A program made the translations under genes and the position numbers. Source: Rugalucina vietnamica (Eukaryota; Mollusca; Bivalvia; Lucinida; Lucinidae). Taken from it: DNA of 64,000 bases. Below the pieces are notes generated by a model. That model saw nothing but the letters and a program-made list of their open reading frames with translations. It was not told the origin of the DNA and searched no databases. The stretch is from positions 62,882,931 to 62,946,930 of the forward strand of contig OZ024869.1 of the NCBI GenBank assembly GCA_964017185.1, given 5' to 3'. Positions 23,601 to 61,045 of this stretch are shown one piece after another. Each line of letters opens with the position of its first letter. Position 1 is the first letter of the stretch.

Positions 23601-26600
23601 TCTATCCAAGCACTAGTGCCTTACAGGTGTCTCAATATGTCAATCATTTCTATATCTTAAACAGGTATGGTTATGTCGGCACGTTGCCTTCATTTTCTGG
23701 GACTTTTACCCAACATTAGGGCGTATTACCATCCAAATGTGCTTTTAAATATAACCGCCCAAATAAAAACTATGAGTTTTATGTATGGATGGTTTGGCTA
23801 AACTTTTCTGGTTAGGTTCAGCCTTCAGTCCTTCTAAGCGGGTAATCAGTCGTCAGGTAGTCGATCAGCTGCTTGTAAATATATTGCCTGGAGATAAAAG
23901 CAGCCCATCTATTTCTGACGGCCCCAGTGGCGGTGGGGCATGCAAATACAGAATTATTTTGATTGACTTGGTTACTTCTATGAAATGGTTAATTTGCATC
24001 TAATTTAATTGAAATAATGTGCAAGCAGGATTGCTGCCTTAATTATTAACAGCCACATCCAAATACAATGTATAGAGATAAAAACGAATATCAAAGCAGA
24101 TGAAAAGCGAATTCGAGCTGCGTCCTCAGTAAGGAAATCTCAGCCTCGTTTTCAGATTAATTCGAACTCGTCCTCGGCAGAGAGACATGAATAATCTGGA
24201 ATTGAAGATTTCCTCGTCTCAGTTCCAAATACATCATAGATTACAAGATCTACCAACCAGGCCTAGTGGTTAAGGTTGCTAAGATTTCATTTTTCGATCA
24301 TCTCATGGCTGTGTCCAGTTTGGACTCAAGGAGCAAATGCGGGACAAGTAAAGTTCTACTTGCATCAATTACTATTATCCAGCAACTGCATTTCTCCAAC
24401 TGTAAATGATTGGTTATTCACAGGCACCTTCGAGTAGGTCCAACAAGATAAATAGGCAAAAGAAAAACAATTTTTGTGTAGACTTTTATAATACAACGTG
24501 AATAAAAATTAAAATTGAGATCCTTTAAGAGCAGTGAACACATTGAGAAAGGGGATGGGCCATACCGCGGTTTCGACTATTTAAGTCTCGTCAGCGACCC
24601 TTTAGATTTGGCAACATGGAATCAAAGAGACTTACTGAAATTTTGCAACTATCAACAGGGTAGTCGATACAAAGACTAGTATTATCTAAATGGGACCAAA
24701 TATGCCAAACATCTGCCAGAAAACAAACCTCAACCGATAATAAATTTACGATTTCTCAGAATATCCTCGCTGATCTCAAAGGACCCAAAAGAAAATATAA
24801 CCTGCACTATGGATGATGTACGGGGATACTTTTTAGGGCCGCCACAGCACCAGCTACAGTAATAGCAAACAAAAATTAAAATTGATATCCTTTAAAAGCA
24901 GTGAACACATTAAGGAGAAAGGGGATGGGCCATACCGGGGTTTCGACTATTAAAGTCTCGTCAGTGACCCTTTAGATCTGGCAACATGGAGCCAAAGAGA
25001 CTTACTGAAATTTTGCAACTATCAACAGTGTAGTCGATACAAAGATTAGTTATGGCGGCCCCCGTGGCCGAGTGGTTAAGGTCGCTGACTTCAGTGCTCT
25101 TGATCATTCGCTCACCGATGTGGGTTCGCGCCTCGCACGGGGCACGAATTCATATGTGAGACAAGCCATGTTCTGCTTGCGGGTGTGTCAGGTGGTTTTT
25201 CCCCGGGTACTCCGGTTTTCGCCCCACCTACCGATTGATTCGTCTCGATATGAGTGAAAAAGCTTGAAAGGGACGTAAAACTGAATCCAAAAAAAAACAA
25301 AAAAAAAACAAAAAAAAAAACAAAAAAAAAAAAAACAAAGAATAGTATTATCTAAATGGGACCAAATATGCCATAATGCCAAACATCGGCCAGAAAACGA
25401 ACCTCAAGCGATAATAAATTTCTGATTTCTCAGAATATCCTCGCTGATCTCAAAGGACCCAAAAGAAAATATAACCTGCACTATGGATGATGTACGGGGA
25501 TACTTTTTAGGGCCGCCACACGGCACAGCACCAGCTGCAGTAATAGCAAATAAAAATTAAAACCGAGATCCTTTAAAAGCAGTGAACACATTAACGAGAA
25601 AGGGGATGGGCCATACCGGGATTTCGACTATTAAAGTCTCGTCAGTGACCCTTTAGATCTGGCAACATGGAGCCAAAGAGACTTACTGAATTTTGCAACT
25701 ATCAACAGGGTAGTCGATACAAAGACTATTATTATCTAAATAGGACCAAATATGCCAAACATCGGCCAGAAAACGAACCTCAACCGACAATAAATTTCTG
25801 ATTTCTCAGAATATCCTCGCTGATCTCAAAGGACCGAAAAGAAAATACCAGAGGACCAATGGTCCTGCAAACGCTCACCTGAGCCTGATGTGACTTAGAT
25901 TATTAATATACACATTGGTTCCCCCATCGTATAGATGATTCACATAAAATTTGGCTTCAATTGGCCAAGTGGTTTTAGAGGAGAAGATGTTTGAATATTA
26001 TGGTAATATACATGTATATTGCCCCGGGGTGTGGACATATGAGCCCTTAGGTCCATTTTGTTTTTCAGAATCATTAATATTTAGTCCTACTACCCATTTC
26101 CTGCAAGATTTTCACCTCAAATGACTTTTTAAAAGTTTTCCCCATTCCAATGCATTGGCGACCTATGTTGACCTTGTCGTAAAATAGGTCAAGGTCACCA
26201 CAGGGTCATGATTTATATATACATTGTAGTACTTCAGCCATTGATGCTTCATACCACGTTTCTTTGAAATCGGTCCTCAAAATTCGGAGAAGATTTTTGA
26301 AGGGTTTTTACCATATATGGGCATGGCAGCCATCTTGGTTATGTGAACTAGATAATTTATATATACATTAATTCCCCTATTCCATAGATGCTTCACATTT
26401 GGCTTTGATTCGCCAAGCGGTTTCAGAGGAGATGTTTGAATGTTATGGTAATATACATGTATATTGCCCCGGGGTGGGGGCAGATGAGCCCCTGGGGTCC
26501 ATTTTTTCAGAATCATTAATATTCAGTCCTACTGCCCATTTCCTGCAAGACTTTCACTTTAAATGACATTTTAAAAGTTTTCCCTATTCAAATGCATTGG

Positions 26601-29600
26601 CGACCTATGTTGACCTTGCCGTAAAAAAAGATCAAGGTCATCACAGGGTCATGATTTATATGCACATTGTAGTACTTCAGCCATCGATGCTTCATGCCAA
26701 GTTTCTTTGAAATCGATCCATCTGTTCTGGAGAAGAAGATTTTTGAAGGGTTTTTACCATATATGGGCATCGCGGTCATCTTGGTCATGTGACCTGGATT
26801 ATTTATATACACATTGATTACCCCTTCCTATTGATGCTTCACATAAAATTTGGCTTGGATTGGCCAAGTGGTTTCAGAGGAGATGATGTTTGAATATTAT
26901 GGTAATATACATGTATATTGCCCCGGGGTGGGGGCATATGAGCCCCTGGGGTCCAATTTTTTTCCAGAATCATTAATATCCAGTCCTACTGCCCATTTCC
27001 TGCAAGACTTTCACTTTAAATGACTTTAAATGACATTTTAAAAGTTTTCCCCATTCAAATGCATTGGCGACCTATGTTGACCTTGCCGTAAAATAAGTCA
27101 AGGTCATCACAGGGTCATGATTTATATACTTATTGTAGTGCTTGAGCCATCAATGCTTCATGCCAAGTTTCGTTGAAATCAGTTTACCGGTTCTGGAGAA
27201 GAAGATTTTTGAAGGGTTTTTACCATATATGGGCATGGCGGCCATCTTGGACGGACGGACGACGGACGGACGCCGGATCATGGCCATCCTATAAGCTCAC
27301 CTTGTGAGCCTAACGGCTCAGGTGAGCTAATAACCTGCAGAGCATTTTATGTACTGCTTTACACCCCAGTCAACAGTAATGGTCATGTCGGGATGTTGCC
27401 TCTATTTTATGGGATTTCTACCCAACATCAGGATGCCATGACGCCCAAAATGTCCTAAAATACAACCACCCAAGTAAACAATTTAAAGATTTGTATGTAT
27501 GGATGGGATGGTTTGACTAAAAAACTTTTCCCGCACAAGCTCAGATCTTCAAAGCGGTTAACCAGTAATCAGGTGGTCGGTCAGTTCGTGGAGACACAAG
27601 CACTCAATTTATTTCCAAAGGCCCAATGGGTAGGGGACCCAAGAAAACAGGTAAGAATTAAAGATTATATGCTAGTGGTTTGGATGAAAAAGATAACTAC
27701 AGAGGTAATCCTGTCTTTTTAATAAGCTTACATCTTAACCATAAACAACACAATTCATTTAATCTCATTCTCAGTAACAAAATATAAATGTTGATGAAAA
27801 AATCAAACATGGTGTCAACATGAATTTGTGCGAAACATTTTTAAGGGTTCCCCTGATCATGAATAGACAATGGTTGCTTATGTTACAGCATAATGTGATT
27901 CCTAAACACAGACAAACATTCATTAATATACAAAATATGCTGAGAGGCCTGTCCATACATAACATGAAAGGGAAATATTTTTGCAAATATAACAAATAAA
28001 GAAAATACAGAAGGATTGTTGTGTAGGCTGATCGGTGCAATGCCTAGAATGTAGAACTGTACCTCAAACCAAAATTCCAATCCTCTGGGCATCTTTAACT
28101 TGTTACAAAGTCTTGTATCCAACCAGGTGGGAAAGCCTTGCAAAAATGTTGTGATTTTACAATAGAGAAGAACAAATTGCTCCAGATGTCACAAACATAA
28201 AAGTGTCATCAGCCTGTAAGACCAGGTAGTCTGACAACAACTTCTGTTGTTGTTGTTTGCTGACTACATAATACAAGACCTTGCAGTTTCAAGATAAATT
28301 TCTAGGCAGACTATGTGTGTCTGGGAAAGTCTGTACTGGTCAAACTGCAATGTTCTGTTCTCATGAAACAATACATAATACTAGGTATGTGCTAATATAA
28401 GGAATCACTACTCGTCTTAAAAAAACTTACTTTAATAGCACTTTTAAGCCATTGCACAATAACAAGTTTCTATTTCACATGAAAACATTTTCTTCATCTA
28501 AATAAATGATGCTTAGGGGAGCGCAGTGGCGTAGTAGTAGAGAATCAGACACCGAACTGAGAGGTCATGGGTTCAATCCCCAGTGATGACACTATGTTGT
28601 GTTCTTGAGCGAGACACATCAACTTCCCTACCCAGAATCATCAGTCTGCTTGCATACATAAGAGCCTGACTAATTTTAAGGTATCTAATCAAACTAAACT
28701 GGTTGTCAAGATGGCAAAGAGCCTGACTAAGTTTAAGGTATCTAATCAAACTATACTGGTTGTCTCCTCAAAAAAAAAATAGCTTGTTTCAATATGAAAC
28801 ATATCATGGTCATACATAAACATCTCATCTGAATCTAACTTGTGATAAAGTCTATTTCATGATACATAAAATAGGATTTGGGTCCTGGTGAAGATGAAAA
28901 ATTTTAAAGATTTTTCTCATATCTGGATATGGGGCCATCTTGGTCTTAAAGACTTGACCATTTGTATTATATTTTGTTTCTGCTTCCCAAACGTTTGCTT
29001 GAATGTTGGTGTTTATTGGCCAAGTGGTTTCAGAGAAGACCTTACACATGTTAAAATTGTATTCCAGTACCCCTGGGCTGGAGCAGACCATACCCAACCT
29101 TAGATCATTTTTAGAATAACAAATCTTTGTCCATTTCCTGCAGGTTCTCATTAAATGCACAGGTCACTAAACTGACCTTGCAAATAAAAACGTCAAGGTC
29201 ATGATACATAAATTATATAAACTTTTATTAACCTTTTCTAGTCCTTCCTAAGGTCAGGCTTCACTGTTGCAGAAATCTTTTTAAAAATGTTGCAGAAATC
29301 TTTTTAAAAATGACGAACATATGGATGGATGCCAGAGGGTATGCTATAACCTCAGATTTTTAGACTAATAACACAGATGAGCTAAAATATACTCAAGGAC
29401 TTTGAAAACGCCTGACTTGTTTTATTGCTTCTTACTCTCAGAATACATGATATATCGGCAAAAATACTTTTGAACTAAAAAGTACAATCCAGTCTGCTTA
29501 ACTTCGATACCAAAACCGAAGCATCAACACCAGTTATTAACGGCATACACAATTAATTCAAGCGTTACCCAGAATTCAACAAAACCAGAGTATAGGGACG

Positions 29601-37400: not shown

Positions 37401-40400
37401 TGCCGGTGATTTAATGTCCCAGTCAACTTTGTCAGTATTGCTGTGATGCAGCCTAAGTTTCCTGCGTGTTTACCAGTATTATGTGGAATCTTGCTTGAGA
37501 ACACAGTGGGGTTCAAACCCAGGATCTCTCGATTATGGAGTCCTTCATCAATAGGCCACTACTTGACCGCACTCCTCTATCATCCGGAAAACATGTCCGT
37601 GAAAAGTATACCCCCTTGAGCCCCACTTTTATATAGAAAACTGGGGTTTACCGGGGTATACCTATTTTTCTTATTTTTGCTCCAAAACATAGATTGTGGG
37701 TACTTGTTAGAAGTGCCTCGCCGAGGTGGTTCTAACGAGTACCCACAATCTATGTTTTGGAGCAAAAATAAGAAAAACTAGAATTGTCAGAGGATCTGAC
37801 TATAGCCCCGCTGCTGAGCTTTTTTCAAGGGTAACAATCCCAAGCTAGATCTTGTTAATGTTGATGCACATAAAAAAATTGGTAAGATTCTGTCAATTTG
37901 TTCTCAAGAAATTGAGCGGAAACATAATTGTGACATCAATCAAGGGCCGTAACTCTGTCAAAATTTTGCAAAAAAAGACGGGCTACAATCCCAAGCTAGA
38001 TCTTGTCAATGTTAATGTGCATACAAAATATGGTTAGATTCTGTTGATTCATACTCAAGGTATTGAGCGGAAACGAAATTCTGATGTCAATCAAGGGCCG
38101 TAACTCTGTCAAAATTTTGCAAAAAATGACGGGCAACAATCCCAAGCTAGATCTTGTCAATGCTGATGTGCATACAAAATTTGGTCAGATTCTGTCTATT
38201 CAGTCTCAAGATATTGAGCGCAACCGAAATTCTGTCAATCAAGGGCTGTAACTCCATCAAAATTTTGTTAAACATGACAGGCAACAATCCCAAGCTAGAT
38301 CTTACCAATGTTGATGTGCATACAAAATTTGGTCACATTCTGTCAATTCGTTCTCAAGATATTGAGCGGAAACAAAATTCTGACGTCAATCAAGGGCTTT
38401 TATTCCGTCAAAATTTTGCGAAAAATGACAGACAACAATCCCAAGCTAGATCTTGTCAATGTTGATAAGCATAAAAAATTTGGTCACATTCTGTCAATTC
38501 GTTCTCAAGATATTGAGCGGAAACAAAATTCTGACGTCAATCAAGGGCCGTAACTCTGTCAAAATTTTTTCGAAAAATGATGGGTAATAATCCCAAGCTA
38601 GGTCCTGTCAATATTGATGTGCATACAAAATTTGGCCCTATTCTGTCAAATCTTTCTCAAGATATTGAGCAGAAACGAAATTTTAAAATAAATCAAGGGC
38701 TGCAACTCTGTCAAAATTTTTTCGAAAAATGATGGGTAACAATCCCAAGCTAGGTCTTGTAAATGTTGATGTGCATACAAAACTTGGTCAGATTCTATCA
38801 ATTTGTTCTCAAGATATTGAACGGAAACGAAATTCTGACGTAAATCAAGGGCTGTAACTCCGTCAAAATTTTGCAAAAAAAGACATTTAACAATACCAAG
38901 CTAGGTCTTGTCAATGTTGATGAGTATACAAAATTTGGTCAGATTATGTCAATTCGTTCTCAAGATATTGAGTGGAAACCAAATATTCACGGAATCATGG
39001 AATAACGGAATCACGGAAAGATGGAGAGACGGAATGACGGAAGGACAGGGTGAATCCAGTATAGGTATAGCCCCACTTTTCCAAAGCGGGGCTATAATAA
39101 CAATATTTCTACTGAAAATATTCAATTTTCACCACTTAAAAAATCTCTGTATATTACATGGGTATGTTTTCATAATGCAGTTCTGTGATTACCTTGCATT
39201 CCTATGTAAGATCCTTGAAAGAGCAGATTCTTCATCAGCTTTAGGTTGTGTACTGGGTACAGGAGTAATAGCGGCATTGCTGTAATAAAGGACATACCAT
39301 GTCTAACAAAACTTGCTGTCAGGATTTCTGAGCAGGTAATAATGGCGCCCAAAATTTAAATTTTCTATTTAAAACTTCCCTAATTTTGTCAAAATTTGAA
39401 TAAATATGAAGGCTCTAGCTCAAATACTTTTCGAGATATCTTTAAAAAAAAAAAGAATTTTCAAATTTCGTTTTCAAAGGGACATAACTCAAAAAAGAGG
39501 CATAAATCTGACATAAAAAACACTATTTTTTCATGAGGAATATGTATATGAAACTAGAAGGAGTTTTCAGAGGAAAACATATGTCCCCCCTCTCTGCACA
39601 AACCCACTTTTAATGTTGTAAATTTTTACATATAACCCTGAAAAATATATACCAACAGACATTTTAAATTAAAACCAATATATACCAACAGACATTTTAA
39701 ATATCACATGTTTCAGCTTTCAATATCTATAAAGTTTGAAGTTTCACAAAATTTACCCATCTACAATCCCAAACCAATCCTTGCCAGTATCAACTAATAT
39801 GCAAAGTTTGAAGAAAATCGGTAAAAAACTACTCAAGTTAGAGAGCGGAAATGAAAAAAATGCAATTTTTAATATCAATCAAGGGCCATTACTCTAAGGT
39901 CATTTGACGAAATTTACAAGGGCCATTACTCTAAGGTCATTTGACGAAATTTACCCATCTACAATCCCAAACCACTCCTTGCCGGTATCAACTCATATGC
40001 AAAGTTTGAAGAAAATCGGTCAAAAACTACTCAAGTTAGAGAGCGGAACCGAACAGAATGTAATTTTTAACATCAATTAAGGGCCATAACTCTGAGGGCG
40101 TTTGACGAAATTTACCCAGATCTACAATCCCAAACCACTCCTTGTCAGTATCAACTAATATGCAAAGTTTGAAGAAAATCGATAAAAAACTACTCAAGTT
40201 AGAGAGCGGAAACGAAAACCAGAGGACCATTGGTCCTGAGAACGCTCACCTGAAGCCCGATCTTGGAGTATTAAGTCATCATGAAATGACCTTGAATACT
40301 CACACACCTTTATTGACATCATAATTGTCTGCATCTGCAAAGTTTCAGGTCTCAGGCTGCAATGGTTTAGTTTCCAAACCCAGTGATTTCTGAGAAGACC

Positions 40401-43400
40401 ATAATTTTAATTTTGATATTTAAATGACCTTGGGTCAAGGTCAAGAAATGACCTTGGCCTTCATTAATTAATTACCTTCATTGACTCCATTAGTTGTCTG
40501 CATGTAGCAACTTTCAGGTCTCAGGCTGCAACAGTTTCCAAAATAATTGATTTCGCCTTTTCCCATGTAAAAGCCTATGTTTCCAAAATTAAAATTGCTG
40601 TAAAATAGGTCAAGGTCATCCTAGGGTCATCATTTGATCAAACTATGATGGGCTGGAGTCCCAAACTGCTACATACCAAGTTTCGCGTAAATCGGCCTGC
40701 CGGTTCTGGAGAAGAAGATTTTTGAGTGGTTTTTACCATAGTTGGGCCTGGCGGCCATCTTGGTCATGTGACCCAAATTTCGCTACCAAACTTTCGTTCT
40801 CCCTATCCATGGACGCTCCACATAAAATTTCACTTTGATTGGCCAAGCAGTTTCAGAGAAGAAGATCTTTGAAAAGTGTGTATGGACGACAGACTGGCCA
40901 AGTTCAAGAGATGACCTTGACCTAAATTAATCACATACCTTCATCTACTCATTTAGTTGTTTGCATCTACCACTTTTTAGGTCTCAGGCTGCAACAGTTT
41001 TCAAAAAATCCATAGTTTTCACTTTTCCCATGTAAAAGCCTATGTTTCCAAAATTGAAATTGCTGTAAAATAAGTCAAGGTCATCCTAGGGTCATCATTT
41101 GATCAAACTATGATGGGCTGGAGTCCCAAATGCTACATACCAAGTTTCATGAAAATTGGCCTGCCGGTTCTGGAGAAGATTTTTGAGTGGTTTTTACCAT
41201 ATATGGGTGTGGCGGCCATCTTGGTCATGTGACCTGGATTTCTCAATCAAACTTTCATTATCTCTACCCATGGATGCTCCACATAAAATTTCAGTTTGAT
41301 TGGCCATGCAGTTTCAGAGAAGAAGATCTAGTGTGTATGGACGACAGACTGGTCAAGGTCAAGAGATGACCTTGACCTAAATTAATCACATACTTTCATT
41401 AGTTGTTTTGCATCTATCACTTTTCAGGCCTCAGGCTGCAATAGTTTTCAAAAAATCCTTAGTTTTCACTTTTTCCCATGTAAAAGCCAATGTTTACAAA
41501 ACTGACCTTGCTGTAAAATAGGTCAAGGTCATGCTAGGGTCATCATTTGATCAAACTATGATGGGCTGTAGTCCCAAATGCTACAGACCAAGTTTCTTGA
41601 AAATTGGCCTTCCGGTTCATGAGAAGAAGATTTTTGAGTGGTTTTTACCATATATGGGTGTGGCGGCCATCTTGGTCATGTGACCTGGATTTCGCGATCA
41701 AACTTTCGTCATCCCTACCCATGGATGCTCCATATAAAATTTCACTTTGATTGACCAAGCGGTTTCAGAAAAGAAGATCTTTGAAAAGTGTGTATGGACG
41801 ACAGACTGGCCAAGGTCAAGAGATGACCTTGACCTAAATTAATCACATACCTCCATTAAGTGTTTTCATCTACCACTTTTCAGGCCTCAGGCTGCAATAG
41901 TTAAAAAAAATCCATAGTTTTCACTTTTTCCCATGTAAAAGCCTATGTTTCCAAATTTGACCCTTGACGTAAAATAGGTCGAGGTCATCCAAGGGTCATC
42001 ATTTTATCTGATGGGCTGAAGTCTTCAATGCTACATACCAAGTTTCGTGGAAATCCGCCCACCAGTTCTGGAGAAGAAGATTTTTGAAGTGTTTTTACCA
42101 TATATTGGCATGGCGGCCATCTTGGTCACGTGACCCGGATCTCGCGATCAAACTTCAGTTCCCCCTACCCATGGATGCTCCACATAATATTTCACTTTGA
42201 TTGGCCAAGCGGTTTCAGAGAAGAAGATCTTTAAAATTGTGGATGACGGACGGACGGATCATGGCCATCCTATAAGCTCACCTTGTGAGCCTTCGGCTCA
42301 GGTGAGCTAAAAATGCATTTTTTAACATCAATCAAGGGCCATTACTCTAAGGTCATTTGACAAAATTTACCCATCTACAATCCCAAACCACTCCTTGCCG
42401 GTATCAACTCGTATGCAAAGTTTGAAGAAAATCGGTCAAAAACTACTCAAGTTAGAGAGTGGAAACGAACAGAATGTAATTTTTAACATCAATTAAGGGC
42501 CATAACTCTGAGGTCGTTTGAAGAAATTTACCCATATACAATCCCAAACCAATCCTTGACAGTATCAACTTATATGCAAAGTTTGAAGAAAATCGGTCAA
42601 ACACTACTCAAGTTAGAGAGCGGAACAAAAAAATTCAATTTTTAACCTCAATCAAGGGCCATAACTCTAAGGTCATTTAACGAAATTTACCCATCTACAA
42701 TCCCAAACCACTCCTTGCTGGTATCAACTCATATGCAAAGTTTGAAGAAAATCTGTCAAAAACTACTCAAGCGGAAACAATCAAGGGCCATAACTCTAAG
42801 GTCATTTGACGAAATTTACCCATCTTCAATCCCAAACCACTCCTTGCCGGTATCAACTAATATGCAAAGTTTGAAGAAAATCGGTCAAAAACTACTCAAG
42901 TTAGAGAGCGGAAACGAATGGAGACACCTGGATTTTCAAACAGTTAATTGACCTTTGTGACCTTGAAAATTAGGTCAAGGTCACCGAAATCTAATCACTC
43001 CATTCGGCTGTCCCAATGAAGTTTCTGTGCCAGTTTGGTCTAATTCTATCCAGTGGTTCAGGAGATATCGTGCAGACAAAAAGCTACGCCGCCGACGCCT
43101 ACGCGATTCACACCAAAAACAATATGTCCCCCACCCCTTCGGAGGGGGGACATAATTTCAAAACTGAAGCAAGCAGCATTCAAAAGTTAGAATAAGAGCT
43201 GTCGCAGGACAGCGTAGCTCGCCTGACTTGTGCTTTGTCACTAAACTTATCAAAATCTATGACCCACGACCTTGACCTCAAGGTCGCTCAGGTGGGTTGT
43301 GATGGTACAGCATACAATTTCAGACCAATATCCACAAACATGCAAAGTTTCAACTTGATCCATCAACATAGAGATATATAGACTTCAAAAATCTTTAACC

Positions 43401-45004
43401 CAAAACTTTAACCAAAAATTTCTAAGGCCATGACCTTGACCTCAAGTTCACCCAGGGTGGGTCATAATAGTACAGCATAAAACTTCAGACCAATATCTAC
43501 CAACACGCAAAGTACCAACTTGATTCATCATGATCTACATGTTCAAGAGATATAGACTTCTAAAAACTTTAACCGAAAACTTTAACAAAATAATTCTAAG
43601 TCTGTGACCTTGACCTCAAGGTCACTCAGGGTGGGTCATGATGGTACTGCATAAAACTTCAGACCAATATCTACCAACATGCAAAGTATCAACTTGATCC
43701 ATCAACATGTTCAAGAGATATAGACTTCTAAAAACTTTAATGAAAAAGTCACTAGAGCACAAAATATAGGTCAAGGTCACTAGATCAATGTGGGTGCAAA
43801 GTCGGGACATCGAGGAGAAGACATATGCAAGGTTTGATGTTTTAGTTGATGAGATATTAAAGGTTGGCTTAAAAAATGACAAAGTCACTGGAGCATGAAA
43901 TATAGGTCAAGGTCAGTAGATCAATGTGGGTGCCGAGTCGGGACATCGAAGAGAAGCCATACGCAAGGTTTGATGGTTGTAGGCTTTATAGTTGATGAGA
44001 TATTAAGGGTTGGCTTGAAAAATGACAAAGTCACTAGAGCATGAAATATAGGTCAAGGTCACTAGGTGAATGTGGGTGCCGAGTCGGGACATCAAGGAGA
44101 AGTCATATGCAAGGTTTGATGGTTATAGGCTTTATAGTTGATGAGATATTAAGAGTTGGCTTCAAAAATGACAAAGTCACTAGAGCATGAAATATAGGTC
44201 AAGGTCACTAGATCAATGTGGGTGCAAAGTCGGGACATCGAGGAGAAGCCATATGCAAGGTTTGATGGTTGTAGGCTTTATAGTTGATGAGATATTTAGG
44301 GTTGGCTTAAAAAATGACAAAGTCACTGGAGCATGAAATATAGGTCAAGGTCAGTAGGTCAATGTGGGTGCCGAGTCGGGACATCGAGGAGAAGCCTTAT
44401 GTAAGGTTTGACAGTTCTAGGCTTTACAGTTGATGAGAAACTAACACAGCATCTAAGCATTGTACAAAGGTGTTATAGATACTGACCTCTAGCCCCGCCC
44501 CCAGGCATGACCCCACGGGTCCCTTCACACTAAATCACAGAGGACCCTCATATGTAGCAATGTTCCAAATATGAATGATTTCTGGTCAGTGACTATCAAG
44601 ATATAACAATTTTAAAAACTTTAACCGAAAGTGTGACGCGGAAGTAAACGTACACGTAAACGTAAACGGGGACGACCAAGGTGACTACAATAGCTCTATG
44701 CACTTCGTGCAGGCGAGCTAAAAAAATGTAACAGACACACAGACAGACATGCCGAAAGCAATATGCCTTCCAACTTTTCCAAGGTTGGGATCATAAAAAT
44801 TTTAAGTTTACTGGGTAACTGAGTGATAACTTATATTATACTTATCAGTCTAGTATTATACTGAAAAAAAAACAACAACAAAAAACCAACAACAGAAGAA
44901 ACTTATTTCACATCCAAACAAAGCTTTCCTTACTTGGTATTTGGAATCTGGGTGTGTCCATTGGCTGCTGGAATCAGAGGGTCCCTCTCACTTGGTGAGC
45001 CAGC
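34370..45004 (-). CDS. LAMTOR1: LAMTOR1 / p18, Ragulator complex lysosomal anchor (5 exons, lacks first exon)
   Basis: Exons on the complement, in coding order: 45004-44934, 39279-39193, 37095-37018, 35071-34942 and 34462-34370. They total 459 nt, 152 residues plus TGA, with phases matching at each junction. LAMTOR1 holds the Ragulator-Rag GTPase scaffold on late endosomes/lysosomes for amino-acid signalling to mTORC1. Recognised by NVIDVAATETQGMEQNEYHD, by QIVLASQPIS, and by a C-terminus DLVVPFGVP, which matches the family's conserved ELVVQFGIP ending. An acidic-dileucine-like ExxxLI (SERDPLI) sits where the family has its sorting motif. Human LAMTOR1 has 161 residues, so only roughly the first 10-20 (the MGCC myristoyl/palmitoyl site) are missing. 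No matching ATG-GG-Cys-Cys exon was found up to base 64000. The introns carry large nested mobile elements. Confidence 0.9.
34942..35071 (-). CDS. LAMTOR1: LAMTOR1 exon
   Basis: On the complement: acceptor ATTTTAG, donor GTATGC. It holds 43 codons, including NRVNQVLASSGRGRQYKLPV and APQIVLASQPISTADIDL. The family's '[25 protein letters not shown]' aligns here. Confidence 0.88.
35281..35787. mobile_element. Foldback element in a LAMTOR1 intron
   Basis: Left arm (about 35281-35420) and right arm (about 35640-35787) are diverged complements. Examples: CTACTGTCTTCACAACATCT against GGTGTTCAGACAGTAG, and AAAAGTGCCACAAA against TTTGTGGCACTTTTT. Confidence 0.6.
35788..37017. other. LAMTOR1 intron, nothing recognised
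   Basis: Ordinary AT-rich intron. Confidence 0.4.
37018..37095 (-). CDS. LAMTOR1: LAMTOR1 exon (core helix)
   Basis: On the complement: acceptor ATTGTAG, donor GTAAAT. It encodes NVIDVAATETQGMEQNEYHD then KARQY. This is the most conserved segment of the family ([24 protein letters not shown] in vertebrates). Confidence 0.93.
37501..37556 (-). repeat. SINE fragment (B-box side)
   Basis: The complement reads GATCCTGGGTTTGAACCCCAC, a pol III B-box. Nothing of the A-box side is clear. Confidence 0.35.
37579..39177. mobile_element. Hairpin MITE family P, copy 1, interrupted by C1
   Basis: The ends GGAAAACATGTCCGTG and CATGGGTATGTTTTC are inverted. The centre carries a ~114-bp hairpin (37664-37777) with two ~56-nt arms and about 3 mismatches, containing ACATAGATTGTGGGTAC. 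Pearl-like C1 (37778-39097) sits between its hairpin and its right end. Confidence 0.75.
37778..39097 (+). mobile_element. Pearl-like element C1
   Basis: It starts CTAGAATTGTCAGAGGATCT (hairpin GTCAGA-GGA-TCTGAC), then TATAGCCCCGC. It ends with hairpin TATAGCCCC...GGGGCTATA and AA. The interior holds about eight ~151-bp units marked by CAATCCCAAGCTAG and TCAAGGGCCGTAACT. Family P copy 2 shows the empty site (AAGAAAAA|TATC), consistent with A|T insertion. Confidence 0.8.
39193..39279 (-). CDS. LAMTOR1: LAMTOR1 exon
   Basis: On the complement: acceptor TTACAG, donor GTAATC. It encodes NAAITPVPSTQPKADEESAL then SRILHRNA, matching the family segment 'DEQALLSSILAKTAS'. Confidence 0.87.
39554..43155 (+). 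mobile_element. Pearl-like element D1, hosting A4
   Basis: It starts CTAGAAGGAGTTTTCAGAGG (hairpin GTTTTC-AGAG-GAAAAC), then ATATGTCCCCCC. It ends with ATGTCCCCC...GGGGGGACAT and AA. The interior has ~160-bp units (CAATCCCAAACCACTCCTTG) on both sides of a nested family-A element. The last part has TGACCTTGAAAATTAGGTCA. Confidence 0.78.
40219..42310 (+). mobile_element. Pearl-like element A4, core I, nested in D1
   Basis: Start CCAGAGGACCATTGGTCCTG, end hairpin TTGTGAGCCTTCGGCTCAGG and GAGCTAA. There are about three ~455-bp units (GACCTTGACCTAAATTAATC marks each). It lies within an A-run of a D1 repeat unit (GGAAACGAAAA | AAATGC), with no visible target duplication. Confidence 0.82.
43193..44721 (+). 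mobile_element. Pearl-like element B1
   Basis: It starts TAAGAGCTGTCGCAGGACAG (hairpin GCTGTC-GCAG-GACAGC), then TAGCTCGCCTG. It ends TAGCTCTATGCACTTC...GCAGGCGAGCTAA. Two repeat types occur inside: ~170-bp units with TGACCTTGACCTCAAGGTCA, and ~190-bp units with GTCGGGACATCGAGGAGAAG. Confidence 0.78.
44934..45004 (-). CDS. LAMTOR1: LAMTOR1 exon (first found; dileucine region)
   Basis: On the complement: acceptor ATTTAG, donor GTAAGG, phase 0 to 2. It encodes AGSPSERDPLIPAANGHTQI then PNT. The SERDPLI motif aligns with the acidic-dileucine of LAMTOR1. Confidence 0.82.
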
Positions 45005-45314
45005 CTAAATAAATAGAACATGACACCAACTATTTGTAGTCCTAAACCTTAGAAATAGAAACATCAGATTGTATTCATTTATGGGAATCTTTGTACTGTT
45101 ACAATTCAACTATATAATATGAGCCTCCTCCTGGGAAAACCAACAATGTGGTTTCCGAACAGGTCCGACACAAAGCGGGCTGTACAAGCACAGAAGATGG
45201 ATAGAGACTGGAAATTTTGGATTTAGAGAGGAATTGTACTATCCGTGTAGCGAAAAGAAAGGCGCTGATTAGCTTTGTGATTACCCTGAAGCTGATCTGC
45301 GCCTTTGTTTTCGC

Positions 45315-46751
45315 ATATCATCAGGAAAACATGTCCGTGTAATGTTTACCCCCTTGAACCCCACTTTTATATAGCAAAACTGGGGTTTGCAGGGGTATAC
45401 CTATTTTTCTTACTTTTGCTCCAAAACATAGATTGTGGGTACTCGTTAGAACCGCCTCGCCGAGGTGGTTCTAACGTGTACCCACAATCTATGTTTTGAG
45501 CAAAAATAAGAAAAATATCAAAGATTTTCAACTAATTTTTTTCAATTTTTACAACTTAAATAAGAGCTGTCGCAGGACAGCGTAGCTCGCCTGACTTGTG
45601 CTTTGTCACTACATCTGTTAAAATCTATGACCCATGACCTTGACCTCAAGGTCACTCAGGTGGGTCATGATGGTACAACATAAAACTTCAGACCAATGCA
45701 AAGTATCAACTTGATCAGTCTACATGTTCAAGAGATATAGACTTATAAAAACATTAACCAAAACTTAAACACAAAACTTCCAAGTCCGTGACCCTGACCT
45801 CAAGGTCATCCAGGTGAGTTGTGATGTACAGCATAAAACCCGAGACCAATATCTACCAACATGCAAGTATCAACTTTATCCATCAACATGTTCAAGAGAT
45901 TTAGACTTTAACCAAAAAATTTAACACAAAATTTCTAAGTCTGTGACCTTGACCTCAAGGTCACCCAGGGTAGGCCATGATGGTACTGCATAAAACTTCA
46001 GATCAATATCTACCAACATGCAAAGTATCATCTCGATCAATCAACATGGTCAAGAGATATAGACTTACAAAAACTTAAATCAAAAACTTAAACACAAAAT
46101 TTCTAAGTCTGTCAGTGTGACCTTGACCTCAATGACCTTGACCTCAAGGTCACCAAGAGTGGGTCATGATGGTACTGCATAAAACTTCAGACCAATATCT
46201 ATCAACATGCAAAGTATCAACTCAATCCATCAATATGGTCAAGAGATATAGACTTACAAAAACTTTAACCAAAAACTTAAACACAAAATTTCTAGTCTGT
46301 GACCTTGACCTCAAGGCACCCAGGGTGGGTCATGATGGTACTGCGTAAAACTTTAAAACTTCAGACCAATATCTAGCAACATGCAAAGTATCACCTCAAT
46401 CCATCAATATGGTCAAGAGATATAGACTTACAAAAACTTTAACCAAAAACTTAAACACAAAATTTCTAAGTCTGTGACCTTGACCTCAAGGTCACCCAGG
46501 GTGGGTCATGATGGTACTGCGTAAAACTTCAGACCAATATCTAGCAACATGCAAAGTATCAACTTTATCCATCAACATGGTCAAGAGATATAGACTTATA
46601 AAAAACTTTAACCGAAAGTGTGACGCGGACGCGGATGCGCACGTAAACGTAAACGTAAACGCGCACGACCAAGGTGACTACAATAGCTCTATGCACTTCA
46701 TGCAGGCGAGCTAAAAATCTCTGTATATTGCATGGGCGTGTTTTCGTAATG
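45315..46751 (+). mobile_element. Hairpin MITE family P, copy 2, interrupted by B2
   Basis: Same ends as copy 1 (GGAAAACATGTCCGTG / CATGGGCGTGTTTTC) and the same central hairpin (about 45403-45515). Sequence right of the hairpin, ending ACAACTTAAA, resumes after B2 with AAATCTCTGTATATT. Copy 1 has these two pieces joined. Confidence 0.8.
45561..46714 (+). mobile_element. Pearl-like element B2
   Basis: Same start (TAAGAGCTGTCGCAGGACAG) and end (GCAGGCGAGCTAA) as B1. The interior is ~165-175-bp units with TGACCTTGACCTCAAGGTCA and CAAGAGATATAGACTTA. It lacks the second repeat type of B1. Confidence 0.82.
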
Positions 46752-46791
46752 TGCAGATTGTTGGTTTTCTCATGGGGGCTCATATCATGCC

Positions 46792-47282
46792 ACAAATTCA
46801 CTGTTTTTATGCACAAACCAACTTTTGGCATCAATTTAATTTGGCTTTAAAAGGATGTCATATGGCGACTGACAGTTTAACGTCTTTAGCTCCTTGAGCA
46901 GACATCACACATCCATGTTTAAACAGTCTAATTTAGGGCAGGATTGCAATGGCAAAAAGTTGGTAGAAGCTGAAGGCTTCAAATCAATTATTGTCATTAA
47001 TCAAAACAGATCAGCTCTATAGAGCTAGAATTCTCTACATGCTTGTGATTTGATCTGTCTCACAATTTTAACTGCCCTACAAACTTATCAGCATCTAGCC
47101 ATGCCTGTTTATATTTGTACAGCCAGGTTTCTGCCAGAACTGCATGGGTGGAAACAGCACAGACACAGATTGTCATGACCGGTCTCACACAATTTTTTTA
47201 TATACATGTAGTTTTGGATAGTTGACTGAAGTATCAACAGATGTTCAGAATATTATCACTGCAATATTTCAGTTGCCCATTC
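46792..47282. other. Non-coding, nothing recognised
   Basis: No repeat or coding signal recognised. Confidence 0.35.
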
Positions 47283-47500
47283 CAAATGACCATGATCCGG
47301 CGTCCATCCGTCGTCCACAATTTCAAAGATGAATATCTCAGAGACCAGTGGGCCGATCGCAATCAAACTTTATTAGCAGCATCATTGTAGTGGGGCATAT
47401 TGCCTGCATAAGCTTTTGAAGCAGATTGAATTAGAACTCTGGTTGCTATGGCAACAGACAACTCCCATAGACTTTGTATGGAGGAAATGTTGTCCACACA
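47283..47500 (-). mobile_element. Family-A fragment
   Basis: GATCCGGCGTCCATCCGTCG, CAGTGGGCCGATCGCAATCA and TTGCTATGGCAACAGACA match the left part of A1/A7. The ends and core are missing. Confidence 0.6.
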
Positions 47501-47589
47501 TTATCTCCGCTATTTTCAATTGGATCTTTTCCATACTTGCAAGGAACAACAACTTACATAAGAGATCGGTTGAGTTAGAAATTCAGCCA

Positions 47590-47910
47590 GATCCGACCTC
47601 GGGCTGCGGAGTTCCCGCACCTAAAATCTCCGCATCAACCATGAGGACCTCCGCACAACATCTGCGGAATTACGCATCAACTATGCGAAATTCTGCAAAA
47701 ACATGCAGAATATCAGCATTTTTTGTGCGGAATTCCGCATAGACATGCGGCACAATATGCGGAATTTCTTCCGCATCTCTCATCGGAAACTTTTCCGCAC
47801 CAGCAGCGGAAAAATCAGACTTAATACTTTTTTAGTGCGGAAACAATGCGGAAAATGTAGACTCAGACAATTTTTGAAGCGGAAAATATCTTAGATTATT
47901 TTACATGCGG
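47590..47910. repeat. Decayed palindromic minisatellite (ATGCGGAATTCCGCAT)
   Basis: Short degenerate units built on TGCGGAA / TTCCGCA alternate in both orientations. A related, cleaner cluster lies at 50868-50940. Confidence 0.65.
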
Positions 47911-48042
47911 AAAATAACTTAGAAAAATTTTACTTGGACAATTTTTGTATATGGGACTTTTCTTAGTGTCAGTGTCCCATTGTATCTTAGGAAAATTATA
48001 GTGCAGAAATTTTGACTTTTTACAAACAAACAATTTCATAAA

Positions 48043-50192
48043 CCAGAGGACCATTGGTCCTGAGAACGCTCACCTGAAGCCTGATCTTGGAGTATTAAGT
48101 CATCATGAAATGACCTTGAATACTCACACTCCTTCACACCTTTATTGACTTCATAAGTTGTCTGCATCTGCAAAGTTTCAGGTCTCATGATCAGGCTGCA
48201 ATAGTTTCCAAACCAAGTGATTTCTGAGAAAACCATAATTTTAATTTTGATATTTAAATGACCTTGGGTCAAGGTCAAGAAATGACCTTGGCCTTCATTA
48301 ATAACTTACCTTCATTGACTTCATTAGTTGTCTGCATCTAGCAACTTTCAGGTCTCAGGCTGCAACAGTTTCCAAAATATCCATTGTTTTCGCCTTTTCC
48401 CATGTAAAAACCTATGTTTCCAAAATTGACCTTGCCATAAAATAGGTCAAGGTCATCCTATGTTCATCATTTCAACAAAGTATGATGGGCTGGAGTCCCA
48501 AATGCTTCATACCAAGTTTTGCCTAAATCGGCCAGCCGGCTCTGGAGAAGAAGATTTTTGAGTGGTTTTTACCATAGTTGGGCATGGTGGCCATCTTGGT
48601 CATGTGACCGGAATTTCGCGATCAAACTTTCGTTCCCCCTAACCATGGATGCTCCACATAAAATTTCACTTTGATTGGCCCAGCAGTTTCAGAGAAGAAG
48701 ATCTTTGAAAAGTGTGTATGGACAACAGACTGGCCAAAGTCGAGATGACCTTGACCTAAATTTATCACAAACCTTCATCTACTCCATTCCTTGTTTGCAT
48801 CTACCACTTTTTAGGTCTCAGGCTGCAACAGTTTCCAAAAACTCCATAGTTTTCACTTTTCCCATGTAAAAGCCTATGTTTCCAAAATTGAAATTGCTGT
48901 AAAATAGGTCAAGGTCATCCTAGGGTCATCATTTTATCAAACTATGATGGGCTGGCGTCCTAAATGCTTCATATCAAGTTTCATGAAAATCGGCCTGCCG
49001 GTTCTGGAGAAGAAGATTTTTGAGTGGTTTTTACCATATATGGGCTTGGCGGCCATCTTGGTCATGTGACCTGGATTTCGCAATCAAACTTTTGTCTCCC
49101 CTACCCATGGATGCTTCACATAAAATTTCACTTTGATTGGACCAGCAGTTTCAGAGAAGAAGATCTTTGAAAAGTGTGTATGGACGATGACTGGCCAAGG
49201 TCAAGAGATGACCTTGACCTACATTAATCACATACCTTCATCTACTCCATTAGTTGTTTGCATCTACTACTTTTTAGGCATCAGGCTGCAATAGTTTTCA
49301 AAAAATCCATAGTTTTCACTTTTTCCCATGTTAAAGCCTATGTTTCCAAAATTGACCTTGCCGGAAATTAGGTCAAGGTCATCCTAGGGTCATCATTTAA
49401 TCAAACTATGATGGGCTGGAGTCCCAAATGCTACATACCAAGTTTCCTGAAAATCAGCCTGCCGGTTCTGGAGAAGAAGATTTTTGAGTGGTTTTTACCA
49501 TATATGGGCGTGGCGGCCATCTTGGTCATGTGACCTGGATTTCGCGATCAAACTTTCGTCTCCCCTACCCATGGATGCTCCACATAAAATTTCACTTTGA
49601 TTGGACCAGCAGTTTCAGAGAAGAAGATCTTTGAAAAGTGTGAATGGATGACAGACTGGTCAAGGTCAAGAGATGACCTTGACCTAAATTAATCACAAAC
49701 CTTCATCTACTCCATTAGTTGTTTGCATCTACCACTTTTCAGGCCTCAGGCTGCAATAGTTTTCAAAAAATCCATAGTTTTCACTTTTTCCCATGTAAAA
49801 GCCTATGTTTCCAAAATTGACCTTGCCGTAAAATAGGTCAAGGTCATCCAAGGGTCATCATTTTATCAAACTATAATGGGCTGAAGTCCCCGATGCTACA
49901 TACCAAGTTTCGTGGAAATCGGCTCACCGGTTCTGGAGAAGAAGATTTTTGAAGGGTTTTTACCATATATGGGCGTGGCGGCCATCTTGGTCATGTGACC
50001 TGGATTTCGCGATCAAACTTGAAATGCCACTACCCAAGGAGGCTCCACATAAAATTTCAACTTGATCGACCAAGCGGTTTCAGAGAAGAAGATCTTTGTG
50101 GACGACGACGACGACGACGGACGGACGGACGGACGCCGGATCATGGCCATCCTATAAGCTCACCTTGTGAGCCTTCGGCTCAGGTGAGCTAA
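48043..50192 (+). mobile_element. Pearl-like element A5, core I
   Basis: Complete: CCAGAGGACCATTGGTCCTG start, AGCTCACCTTGTGAGCC hairpin and CTAA end. There are about four ~460-bp units. Near the 3' end is a (GAC)n/(GGAC)n microsatellite. At least ten TCAAGGTCA or TGACCTTGA boxes lie inside. Confidence 0.85.
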
Positions 50193-50837: not shown

Positions 50838-50867
50838 CTCAAACCCCTGTATCGCACTGAGCGGAGC

Positions 50868-50940
50868 TCCGCATCACATGCGGAATTTTTTATGCACCAC
50901 ATGCGGAATTCCGCATCCACATGCGGAATTCCGCATCAGA
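50868..50940. repeat. CATGCGGAATTCCGCAT minisatellite
   Basis: Four imperfect units of ~19 bp. The core ATGCGGAATTCCGCAT is a perfect 16-bp palindrome. Confidence 0.75.
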
Positions 50941-51312
50941 CCATTTTGAATATATTATTGCTGACCAATAGGAAATCAGAATTTCAAGTACTGACTCACT
51001 TCCTGTTTTCAAATATTAGAGGGAGCATTGTTTGAAAGGAAGTGTTCTAACATGTGCCATTTTTAAAATTGTGTTATAATGAAAATGCTGTTAAGGAGTT
51101 TAATTCTTTAGCAATGTAAGTAGCCAGTATTTATATGAATTGTCTTTTTATGTTGCTCTATGCCTTCTCTGTGTTGAAATTTGCTACTGCAGATTGCTTC
51201 AATAAATTTTGTCTCAGTCCATGAATTTATATATATAGTTCAACAAAACAATGATTCAGGAACATTAGAATCTCTAGAATACAAAATTACAGGTCTTCAT
51301 ATACAATAGTAA

Positions 51313-51831
51313 TGTAACAGGATAGTCTCCCTTGTAGAATACGTTGGTGCAACGTATTAGCAGCATATTAGCGGGTAGTAATATGCAAATTAGAAACTCG
51401 AAACTTTGTGATTAGAGTAAGTGTTGGGTATATAGCGCAGTAAACCACCCTTGGTGGATGAGCATGCTTTTCCACCGACGGGGTTTGCTGTGGCTTGGCT
51501 CGGCTGTTCGTTACATTTGGTGGCAGCGGTGGGATGATGACAACTGTCAGACAGGAGTTGCCTTACCTACAAATGTATGTAGTCCCTAGGCCAAGACTCG
51601 GGACGAGTCTTCTCGGAGGGGGAAGTAATGTAACGGGATAGTTTCCCTTGTAGAATACGTTGGTGCAACGTATTAGCGGCATATTAGCGGGTAGTAATAT
51701 GCAAATAAGAAACTCGAAACTTTGTGATTAGAGTAAGTGTTGGGTATATAGCGCAGTAAACCACCCTTGGTGGATGAGCATGCTTTTCCACCGACGGGGT
51801 TTGCTGTGGCTTGGCTCGGCTGTTCGTTACA
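51313..51831 (+). mobile_element. TRIM: miniature LTR retrotransposon with tRNA-Leu primer site
   Basis: Two 203-bp LTRs, 51313-51515 and 51629-51831, begin TGTAAC and end GTTACA and differ at about four positions (~98% identical). The PBS TGGTGGCAGCGGTGGGA (51518-51534) is complementary to the 3' end of tRNA-Leu (AAG type, plus CCA). A purine tract GGAGGGGGAAG precedes the second LTR. Only ~113 bp separate the LTRs, so it has no gag or pol and depends on another element. No clear flanking duplication is seen (AGTAA / GTTAT). Confidence 0.92.
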
Positions 51832-53010: not shown

Positions 53011-53635
53011 CCAGAGGACCAATGGTCCTGTAAACGCTCACCTGAGATCTGCTGCATATACCAAAAAACATGTTTGAATATTATGGTATTTAATCCCAGT
53101 GCAGGGGCAGATGAAGCCCTTGGGACATTTTCTTTTTCAGAATAATCAATATATTGTCCATTTGCCAATTTCCTGCTGGCTTTTTCCTTCAAATGACATT
53201 TTAACAGTTATTCCCATTCAAATGCATTGGCAACCCATGTTGACCTTGCCATAAACTGGGTCAAGGTCATCACAGGGTCATGATTTATATATACATTGTA
53301 GTACTTGAGCCATCGATGCTTCAAGCCAAGTTTCCTTGAAATCTGTCCACTGGTTCCGGAGAAGAAGATTTTTGAGAGATTTTTACCATATATGGGCCTG
53401 GCGGCCATCTTGGTCATGTGACCTGGATTATTTATATACACATTGATTACCCCATCCTTTAGATGCTTCACATAAAATTTGGCTTTGATTGGCCAAGTGG
53501 TTTCAGAAGAGAGATGTTTGAATATTATGGAGATATACATGTATATTGCCCCGGGGTGGGGGCATATGAGCCCCTGTGGTCCATTTTTTGTCAGAATCAT
53601 TAATAGTCAGTCCTATTGCCCATTTCCTGCAAGGG
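53011..53635 (+). mobile_element. Family-A element A6, 3'-truncated
   Basis: Starts CCAGAGGACCAATGGTCCTG and carries one and a half core-I units (GGTCAAGGTCATCACAGGG, ATATGGGCCTGGCGGCCATC), then stops abruptly at CCTGCAAG. Confidence 0.75.
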
Positions 53636-59268: not shown

Positions 59269-61045
59269 TTAGCTCACCTGAGCCGAAGGCTCACAAGGTG
59301 AGCTTATAGTATAGTGGTCGAGCCGGCGTCCGTGCGTGCGTCCGTCCGTCCGTGCGTCTGTCCACATTTTCAAACTTGAATATCTCTAAGACAACAAGGC
59401 CAATCGTGACCAAATTTTATCTAAAGCATCATTGAGGAGGGGGAAAGGTTGTGTTAGGTTTTGGGCTAGGTCGGATAGGAACTCTGGTTTCCATGGCAAC
59501 GGATAGCTCCAATAGACTTACAATGGGAAAAACATATAAAAATCTTCTTCTCTGAAACCACAAGGCCAAGAGCTTTCATATTTTGCTGTAGCAATGTCTA
59601 GTGGTCCTCTTCATAAATCCTGCCTACCGTGCTCTTGGGGTCCATACGGGCCCCGCCCCGGGGGTGTCATGGGAAAAACATAAAAAATCTTCTTCTCCAA
59701 AACCACAAGGCCCAAAGCTTTCATATTTTGTTTGTAGCAATGTTTACTATAAATCCTGCTAATCATGCCCCTGGGGTCAAAAATGGCCCCGCCCCGGTGG
59801 TCATTAGCTCCCATAGACTTACATGTACAATGGGGAAAAAACATAAAAAAAAATCTTCTTCTTGGAAACCACAAGGCCCAGAGCTTTCATATTTTGTCAG
59901 TAGCAATGTATAATGGTCCTCTTTATAAATCATGCCAACCGTGCCCCTGGGGTCCATACGGGCCCCGCCCCGGGGGCGTCATGGGAAAAACTTTTAAAAA
60001 ATTTCTCCGAAACCACAAGACCCAAAGCTTTCATATTTTGTGTGTAGCAATGTATAGTGGTCCTTTTTATAAATCCTGCCAGCATTGCCCCTGGGGTCCA
60101 TACGGGCCCCGCCCCAGGGGGGGTCATGGGTAAAACATAAAAAATCTTTTTCTCCGAAACTACAAGGCCCAGAGCTTTCATATTTTGTTTGTAGCAATGT
60201 ATAGTGGTCCTCTTTGTAAATCCTGCCAACCGTGCCCCTGGGGTCCATACGGGGCCCGACCCAGGGGCGTCATGGGAAAAACTTTAAAAAATCTTCTTCT
60301 TCGAAACCACAAGGCCCAAAGCTTTCATATTTTGTGTGTAGCAATGTATAGTGGTCCTCTTTATAAATCCTGCCAGCCGTGCCCCTGGGTTCCATACGGG
60401 CCCCGCCCCGGGAGGGTCATGGATAAAACATAAAAAAAATCTTCTCCTCCGAAACCACATGGCCCAGAGCTTTCATATTTTGTTTGTAGCAATGTATAGT
60501 GGTCCTCTTTATGAATCCTGTCAACCATGTCCCTGGGGTCCATACGGGCCCCGCCCCGGGGGCGTCATGGGAAAAACTTTGAAAAAATCCTCTTCTCCGA
60601 AACCACAAGGCCCAAAGCTTTCATATTTTGTGTGTAGCAATGTAAAGTGGTCATCTTTATAAATCCTGCTACAAATCCTGCCAACCATGCCCCTGGGGTC
60701 CATGCAGGCCCCACCCCGAGGGCGTCATTGGAAAAACATAAAAAAAATCTTCTTCTCTGAAACCATATGGCCCAGAGCTTTCATATGTTGTGTGGACCAA
60801 TGTATAATACTCTCCTTTATAAATTCTGCCAACGGTGCCCCTGGGGTCCATACAGGCCATGCCCCAGGCATGTCATTATCTACCATAGACTTATAATGGA
60901 AATATATGAAAAAAATCTTCTCTGCAACAGCATGACACAAAGCTTGTATATTTGATATACAACATTGTCATGTGGAGCTCTACATAAATCCTGCCAATCT
61001 TGCCCCTGGGGTCAAATATGGCCCCACCCCGGGGGTCATTATAGG
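59269..61045 (-). mobile_element. Family-A element A7, core II (5' end lost)
   Basis: On the complement it ends with the hairpin GCTCACCTTGTGAGCC / GGCTCAGGTGAGCT and CTAA. The interior is about ten units of ~148 bp carrying GGGGTCCATACGGGCCCCGC, related to but distinct from the A1 core. The CCAGAGG 5' terminus is absent. Confidence 0.75.

Follow-up and report, generated by a model that had tools for sequence, protein, structure and literature searches.

The stretch considered here, called the window, is a 64,000-nucleotide segment of the genome of the bivalve Rugalucina vietnamica (assembly GCA_964017185.1, contig OZ024869.1, positions 62,882,931 to 62,946,930), and it harbors eight complete repeat elements with four types of ends (four of family A, two of B, one of C and one of D), which are interpreted below as HINEs, i.e., non-autonomous Helentrons. 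On the minus strand, the family C element (37778–39097), with its 5′ end at 39097 and its boundaries taken from an empty-site comparison, has a 3′ palindrome at 37786–37800, a 3′ subterminal inverted repeat (subTIR) at 37801–37811 and a 5′ hairpin at 39066–39097. The family D element (39554–43155, minus strand; 3′ palindrome 39563–39578, 3′ subTIR 39579–39589, 5′ hairpin 43124–43155) is interrupted by a nested copy of family A on the same strand (40219–42310; 3′ palindrome 40223–40237, 3′ subTIR 40244–40253, 5′ hairpin about 42275–42310), whose excision restores a D core unit. The first copy of family B occupies 43193–44721 (minus strand; 3′ palindrome 43198–43213, 3′ subTIR 43215–43225, 5′ hairpin 44691–44721), and the second, delimited by an empty-site comparison, lies within a host repeat at 45561–46714 (minus strand; 3′ palindrome 45566–45581, 3′ subTIR 45583–45593, 5′ hairpin 46684–46714); the comparison used 46713 as the end, and 46714 brings the run of A into agreement. 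A second copy of family A follows at 48043–50192 (minus strand; 3′ palindrome 48047–48061, 3′ subTIR 48068–48077, 5′ hairpin about 50157–50192), and its core shares an identity of 0.92 with the core of the nested copy. The two remaining complete elements are A-ended as well, namely one at 25848–27330 (minus strand) with a different core and a GTTA loop, and one in the opposite orientation at 15160–17505 (plus strand) with a 165-bp core and a 3′ end in CTAG.

An initial annotation of this DNA had noticed that the four families share one terminal layout, and the hairpins, arms and 3′ hairpins that it quoted are all present at the positions it gave. A scan with this pattern, which was composed with the elements already in view, returned 14 clusters in the window, compared with a mean of 0.15 and a maximum of 1 in 40 dinucleotide shuffles. 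Eight clusters are the complete elements, one joins the left end of one B copy to the right end of the other, three fall within a repeat near 51.3–51.8 kb that we take to resemble a terminal-repeat retrotransposon in miniature (TRIM), and two resemble chance. When reverse-complemented, the window elements run from TT through a subTIR and its local complement, which form the 5′ hairpin, to a microsatellite, a tandem core, a 3′ subTIR and a palindrome. All eight complete elements begin with TT and carry a 5′ hairpin, and in each of them subTIRs of 10–13 bases (by reading) near both ends, a local complement of the 5′ subTIR and a short palindrome near the 3′ end were found, the palindrome lying about 4 to 10 bases from that end. 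The microsatellite beside the 5′ hairpin consists of GTCC-type runs in A, and the remaining three families have different short repeats there.

This order is the published order of HINEs, which have been described as starting with a 5′ subTIR and a complementary inverted repeat close to it, continuing with a microsatellite and then tandem repeats, and closing with a 3′ subTIR and a palindrome towards the 3′ end, and as residing in T-rich DNA without target duplication (PMC7492417; PMC4067079; here and below, statements on cited papers refer to the portions of these texts that were available). It likewise corresponds to Helitron2 ends, where the 5′ repeat pairs with bases downstream of it to form the 5′ hairpin and the 3′ copy lies immediately upstream of the 3′ hairpin (PMC3627910). 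We therefore identify the four families as HINEs that are moved by Helentron Rep/helicase proteins of the same genome, a reading to which we assign a probability of about 95%. The initial annotation was right to hint at pearl and Helentron-associated elements, and the terminal grammar that it proposed is indeed shared, but it had already been published for Helitron2, Helentron and HINE ends (PMC3627910; PMC4067079; PMC7492417) and had been read backwards: the true 5′ end is what had been taken for a 3′ hairpin ending in AA, the AA being the TT start, while the true 3′ end is the supposed 5′ palindrome followed by CTAG, CTGG, or CTTA, so that the supposed starts in CTAGA, CCAGA, and TAAGA are 3′ ends in TCTAG, TCTGG, and TCTTA. 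The orientation is fixed by an autonomous element with A ends, whose 2,604-aa Rep frame runs from the hairpin end to the palindrome end. The window elements thus represent known Helentron anatomy rather than a new grammar, and are fresh members of a described superfamily.

None of ten open reading frames in the window gave a Pfam match (0/10), and candidates for the mobilizing proteins come from the assembly as a whole (1,089,854,562 bases in 47 contigs). A search for the Helitron_like_N domain gave 409 first-look candidates, all 150 of those scored matched the domain, and 0 of 14 control genomes did. Thirty-one Rep sequences (30 loci and one longer copy) formed eleven groups at 70% identity, and arm and palindrome motifs were found at 0 of the 30 loci over the stretches first extracted. 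One group has seven members, including the longer copy, and over the parts compared, its C1 and C8 copies share about 94% identity; the similarity breaks off on the left at TTTTTAGCTCACCTGAGCCGAAGGCTCA and on the right at CAGGACCATTGGTCCTCTGGTT, which are the ends of family A. The C1 copy of this A-ended Helentron measures about 13.2 kb, has next to its 5′ hairpin both a CGTCC microsatellite and a 325-bp tandem array, and is 72.5% identical over its first 290 bp to the HINE at 15160; its 2,604-aa frame matches Helitron_like_N (8.7e-28), DUF6570, and PIF1 (1e-18). A further group has frames reaching 3,542 aa; two of its loci agree at 99.7% along the 366 bp that lead to GCGGGGCTATAGTCAGATTCTCTGACAGTTCTAG plus TT, the 3′ end of family C, and the evidence for this C partner consists of the 3′ end and a Rep domain. 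A third Rep group has an endonuclease-like frame and then a D-like 3′ end, common to two copies at 99.4%. Rep-bearing elements with A and C ends hence exist in the same genome, so that the autonomous partner with matching ends, for which the initial annotation had suggested looking, was found for both ends of A and for the 3′ end of C, but only in a D-like form for D and not for B. The D-like-ended Rep/endonuclease Helentron bears, about 235 bp before its end, a 3′ module of A type (L072:820–1105 and the matching region of L078), possibly an older terminator that is now bypassed or else what is left of another insertion.

The ends are abundant in this genome: searches for the palindrome-arm module with up to 3 mismatches returned 19,483 places for A, 4,934 for B, 1,727 for C, and 404 for D, and the control, the same pattern read backwards, returned 0 for each. 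An exact search for a family A hairpin gave 0 matches in prokaryote or viral contig collections.

The boundaries were established for A, B, and C by comparison with empty sites. Two copies of a host repeat serve as mutual empty sites, as the copy at about 37.58 kb has C and lacks B, while the copy at about 45.32 kb has B and lacks C; in addition, the A element at 40219–42310 breaks a D core unit of which an intact form lies about 350 bases to the left. In these three comparisons (one A, one B, and C) there is no target duplication and each element supplies its own AA, i.e., the elements inserted into A/T runs and duplicated nothing. For D, no empty site was found. That copies elsewhere keep the boundary proposed initially is borne out for family A, where CCAGAGG is preceded by A, corresponding to T on the HINE strand, in 29 of 30 genome copies, these being the first 30 exact matches on one contig, among which two pairs have a common flank. 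The neighboring A copies L008/L009 and L019/L020 have identical flanks, indicating that part of the neighborhood was duplicated. At L029/L030 (C1:9242702 and 9245311), two A elements lie apparently head to tail, with a GAGCTAA end abutting a CCAGAGG end, as expected of tandem rolling-circle products or of insertion beside an end.

Other classifications have to be measured against these data. High copy number, short inverted repeats and the lack of coding capacity would suit cut-and-paste elements resembling miniature inverted-repeat transposable elements, as which Pearl elements were first described; however, the three empty-site comparisons without target duplication, the asymmetric ends and the Rep/helicase partner with the same ends, by which this explanation is already refuted for A, led us to reject it as having next to no chance of being correct. 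Non-autonomous canonical Helitrons (Helitron1) come to mind because the terminal hairpin of C, of D and of one A copy precedes CTAG and T, as at Helitron1 3′ ends, yet the window elements begin with TT rather than TC, and Helitron1 possesses neither the 5′ hairpin nor the inverted repeats at the two ends that are present here. The A-ended autonomous element also shows a weak C-terminal endonuclease match. An assignment to Helitron1 is very improbable and was rejected. The initial annotation itself had regarded the families as unrelated lineages that arrived at one layout with newly co-evolving end recognition, and the arms of the A/B pair, of C and of D do differ from one another at both ends together. 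However, a single base separates the A arm from the B arm, and the core units of C and D are homologous, with identities of 0.68 over 490 columns (score 72; best of 12 shuffles 23.5) and 0.65 over 619 columns (score 109.5; best of 12 shuffles 19.5). Furthermore, the layout has been published for a single superfamily, and the A-ended and C-ended Rep proteins are 33–34% identical over about 1,000 aa. Convergence of unrelated lineages was therefore rejected as highly unlikely. The six A-ended cores compared are mutually related in 15 of 15 pairs, and oyster HINEs show the same mosaic, with related ends and related or unrelated cores (PMC7492417).

Several observations on the Rep loci speak against our assignment of all four families to HINEs with partners in this genome. 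The endonuclease of the A-ended Helentron reached 19.9 bits and that of the D-like Rep group 23.9 bits with Exo_endo_phos, both below the cut-off of 24.5. When four other loci were compared, at offsets that were guessed, as potential second copies with the C 3′ end, L082 aligned and L079, L083, and L084 did not. For D, the only candidate is one Rep group with a 3′ end that is D-like but diverged; the 5′ end of this D-like Helentron was not found in 4.5 kb upstream, and no partner for B was found among the Rep loci. Among seven Rep loci scanned downstream, four had no assignable 3′ end, and one candidate 3′ end (L047 group) was absent from a second copy.

A mechanism for these ends has been proposed by Bao and Jurka, in which pairing of two inverted-repeat copies destroys the 5′ hairpin and thereby sets the replication endpoint (PMC3627910). 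Applied to the elements described here, Rep would most likely nick and peel off the Rep-sense strand, and the 5′ arm would fold onto its local complement to form the hairpin. As the round closes, the 3′ subTIR, carrying the same complement, would compete for the 5′ arm, and the 3′ palindrome would mark the stop; nicking, the pairing switch and recognition by protein are all inferred. The window elements carry one 5′ arm with a complement nearby and a second complement at the 3′ end, so any substitution in the arm would have to be met by both complements and the three copies would change together. Compensatory changes have previously been reported for two Culex elements (PMC3627910). The joint change at both ends, from which the initial annotation argued for co-evolving end recognition, is what pairing of inverted repeats itself demands.

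One feature of the 5′ hairpin goes beyond this plan. On the Rep-sense strand, its tip is GAA in families B and D and in the majority of A copies, and family C has either GGA or GAA. Loops were sampled with two genome patterns that leave the hairpin tip free and cover two arm types. The pattern TTATNNCCCC with GGGGNNATA occurs at 6,351 places (control, 48), and among 100 matches listed there are 82 GNA loops, 4 GNNA loops, 12 other loops and 2 cases without an inner stem, with GNA/GNNA on the opposite strand in 0 of 98. For TTAGCTCNCC with GAGCTNNT (36,033 places; control, 10), the 31 matches listed with letters comprise 16 GNA, 9 GNNA, and 6 other loops, the opposite strand again having none (0/31). 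Pooled over the matches listed, GNA/GNNA loops are found in 111/131 on the Rep-sense strand and in 0/129 on the other; the sampled hairpins are related copies, and no probability is attached to these counts. In the window outside the elements, 54 of 1,366 hairpins (4-bp stems, 3- or 4-base loops) have such a loop, and the 3′ palindromes of the window families have loops other than GNA/GNNA. Among the 18 loops of other types, 6 or more (AAA, ATTA, TTGA, TGAAG) can be derived by a one-step change at the CG opening the loop. In the loci at hand, family A matches were GAA, GTTA, or GTCA in 14 of 14, the expression used requiring the family A stem and missing the diverged copy at 61.44 kb with its ATTT loop. 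The matches to TTATNNCCCC and GGGGNNATA also include further families with the same 5′ hairpin plan, outside the four, with arms TATACCCCC and TATGCCCCC.

When closed by two or more G-C pairs, loops of the GNA or GNNA type give extraordinarily stable DNA mini-hairpins (PMC4686876), although several stems here have fewer than two G-C pairs next to the loop and C has none at the tip. Such loops confer unusual stability on hairpins of single-stranded DNA, and as they are present on the Rep-sense strand only, this is probably the strand that folds. Computed DNA folding energies show no difference between the two strands of the 5′ hairpins, so that the strand argument rests on published loop chemistry. 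On balance, we lean by a small measure towards the view that the Helitron2/Helentron 5′ hairpin has a strand-specific GNA/GNNA cap that has been conserved through the turnover of arms and stems, both in this genome and in fungi. If this is true, the cap would mark the strand that is single-stranded in transposition and provide a family-independent signature of the 5′ end. It is quite possible, if somewhat doubtful, that the cap has no function in itself and simply descends from a single ancestral hairpin, as the sampled copies stem from few families and are not independent, the two patterns represent two arm types, 18 of 131 carry another loop and 2 more lack an inner stem, and the folding program saw no strand difference. 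However, at least ten different stem pairings occur beside the loop, including AAAAC/GTTTT, ATAC/GTAT, TATAAC/GTTATA, ACC/GGT, and CTCC/GGAG as well as AACTTC/GAAGTT, CTTT/AAAG, TGAGCC/GGCTCA, TGCAC/GTGCA, and CCTGTAC/GTACAGG, and yet G and A are kept at the ends of the loop. The loop itself varies in length (GAA versus GTTA, GTCA, GGAA, and GAAA), two Fusarium subgroups show C-GAA-G, and the background of 54/1,366 also tells against mere inheritance. The fungal cases are FoHeli1 and FoHeli2, whose 5′ hairpins are printed with a GAA loop between C and G (PMC5148889); the word “loop” is absent from the main text of that paper, and no discussion of a strand-specific loop of Helitron 5′ hairpins was found in the literature searched, part of which was covered by a listing of papers.

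Among known systems, Cg_HINE of the Pacific oyster is similar in its 11–12 bp subTIR, local complementary inverted repeat, GTCY/GTCC microsatellite, tandem core, 3′ subTIR followed by a palindrome, T-rich insertion without duplication, and related ends with related or unrelated cores; it differs in genome and, as far as seen, in its arms, the comparison being one of descriptions and not of sequences (PMC7492417). The Pearl elements of bivalves, likewise compared by description only, have similar short arrays of about 160-bp repeats and were re-classed as non-autonomous Helentrons according to the same paper (PMC7492417). The terminal strings of the window elements were not found in the paper texts. 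DINE-1/HINE elements and Helentrons of Drosophila, mite, and mosquito share the subTIRs, the 5′ inverted repeat, the 3′ stem loop, the TT target and a partner with Rep and helicase; the endonuclease of their partner has a sub-threshold match here. In the mite elements, the palindrome is 8–35 bp from the 3′ end, compared with about 4 to 10 bases here, and some 3′ ends here read CTAG (PMC4067079). Helitron2 (PMC3627910) and the Fusarium elements FoHeli1/2 (PMC5148889) are alike in having hairpins at both ends and asymmetric inverted repeats; fungal Helitron2 is without endonuclease, and FoHeli3–5 have a degenerate 5′ hairpin, for which no loop is printed in the text seen (PMC5148889).

Further features of the window are partial copies and other repeats. 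A partial A-type 3′ module lies at 53011–53046 (minus strand), with no 5′ hairpin found nearby, while partial A-type 5′ hairpins are present on the plus strand at 59269–59303 (GAA loop; 147-bp tandem core at about 59.8–60.9 kb) and, in the diverged form with an ATTT loop, at 61442–61479, where it adjoins a 453-bp tandem core. The left parts of the two host-repeat copies, to which no strand is assigned, lie at 37580–37777 (copy harboring C and serving as empty site for B; resuming at 39098) and at 45318–45560 (copy harboring B and serving as empty site for C; resuming after 46714). This host repeat is a repeated foldback, a long inverted repeat around ATAGATTGTGGGTAC, and related inverted repeats occur in locus L006 and in one autonomous Helentron locus. 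Short imperfect repeats based on GCGGAATTCCGCAT are found at about 47600–47900 and 50860–50940. At about 51310–51831, two direct repeats of ~200 bp with TGTAAC...GTTACA ends flank a short spacer, a pair that presumably is a TRIM, a small non-autonomous long terminal repeat element. At 8988–11176, there are about 41 copies of a 44-bp unit (9370–11176) and a short block ahead of them, the array being split at about 9140–9370 by an insert resembling a foldback miniature inverted-repeat transposable element.

The striking grammar shared by the four families is accordingly the end structure of Helentrons, with its orientation now fixed and with Rep-bearing partners for two of the four end types, one of which (A) occurs about 19,500 times in the genome. 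The part worth a second look is the strand-specific GNA/GNNA cap, the rest being known anatomy read backwards. If the loop rule holds elsewhere, how Helitron2-type transposases find the 5′ end becomes a simple oligonucleotide question, and the loop a signature by which such ends can be searched for.

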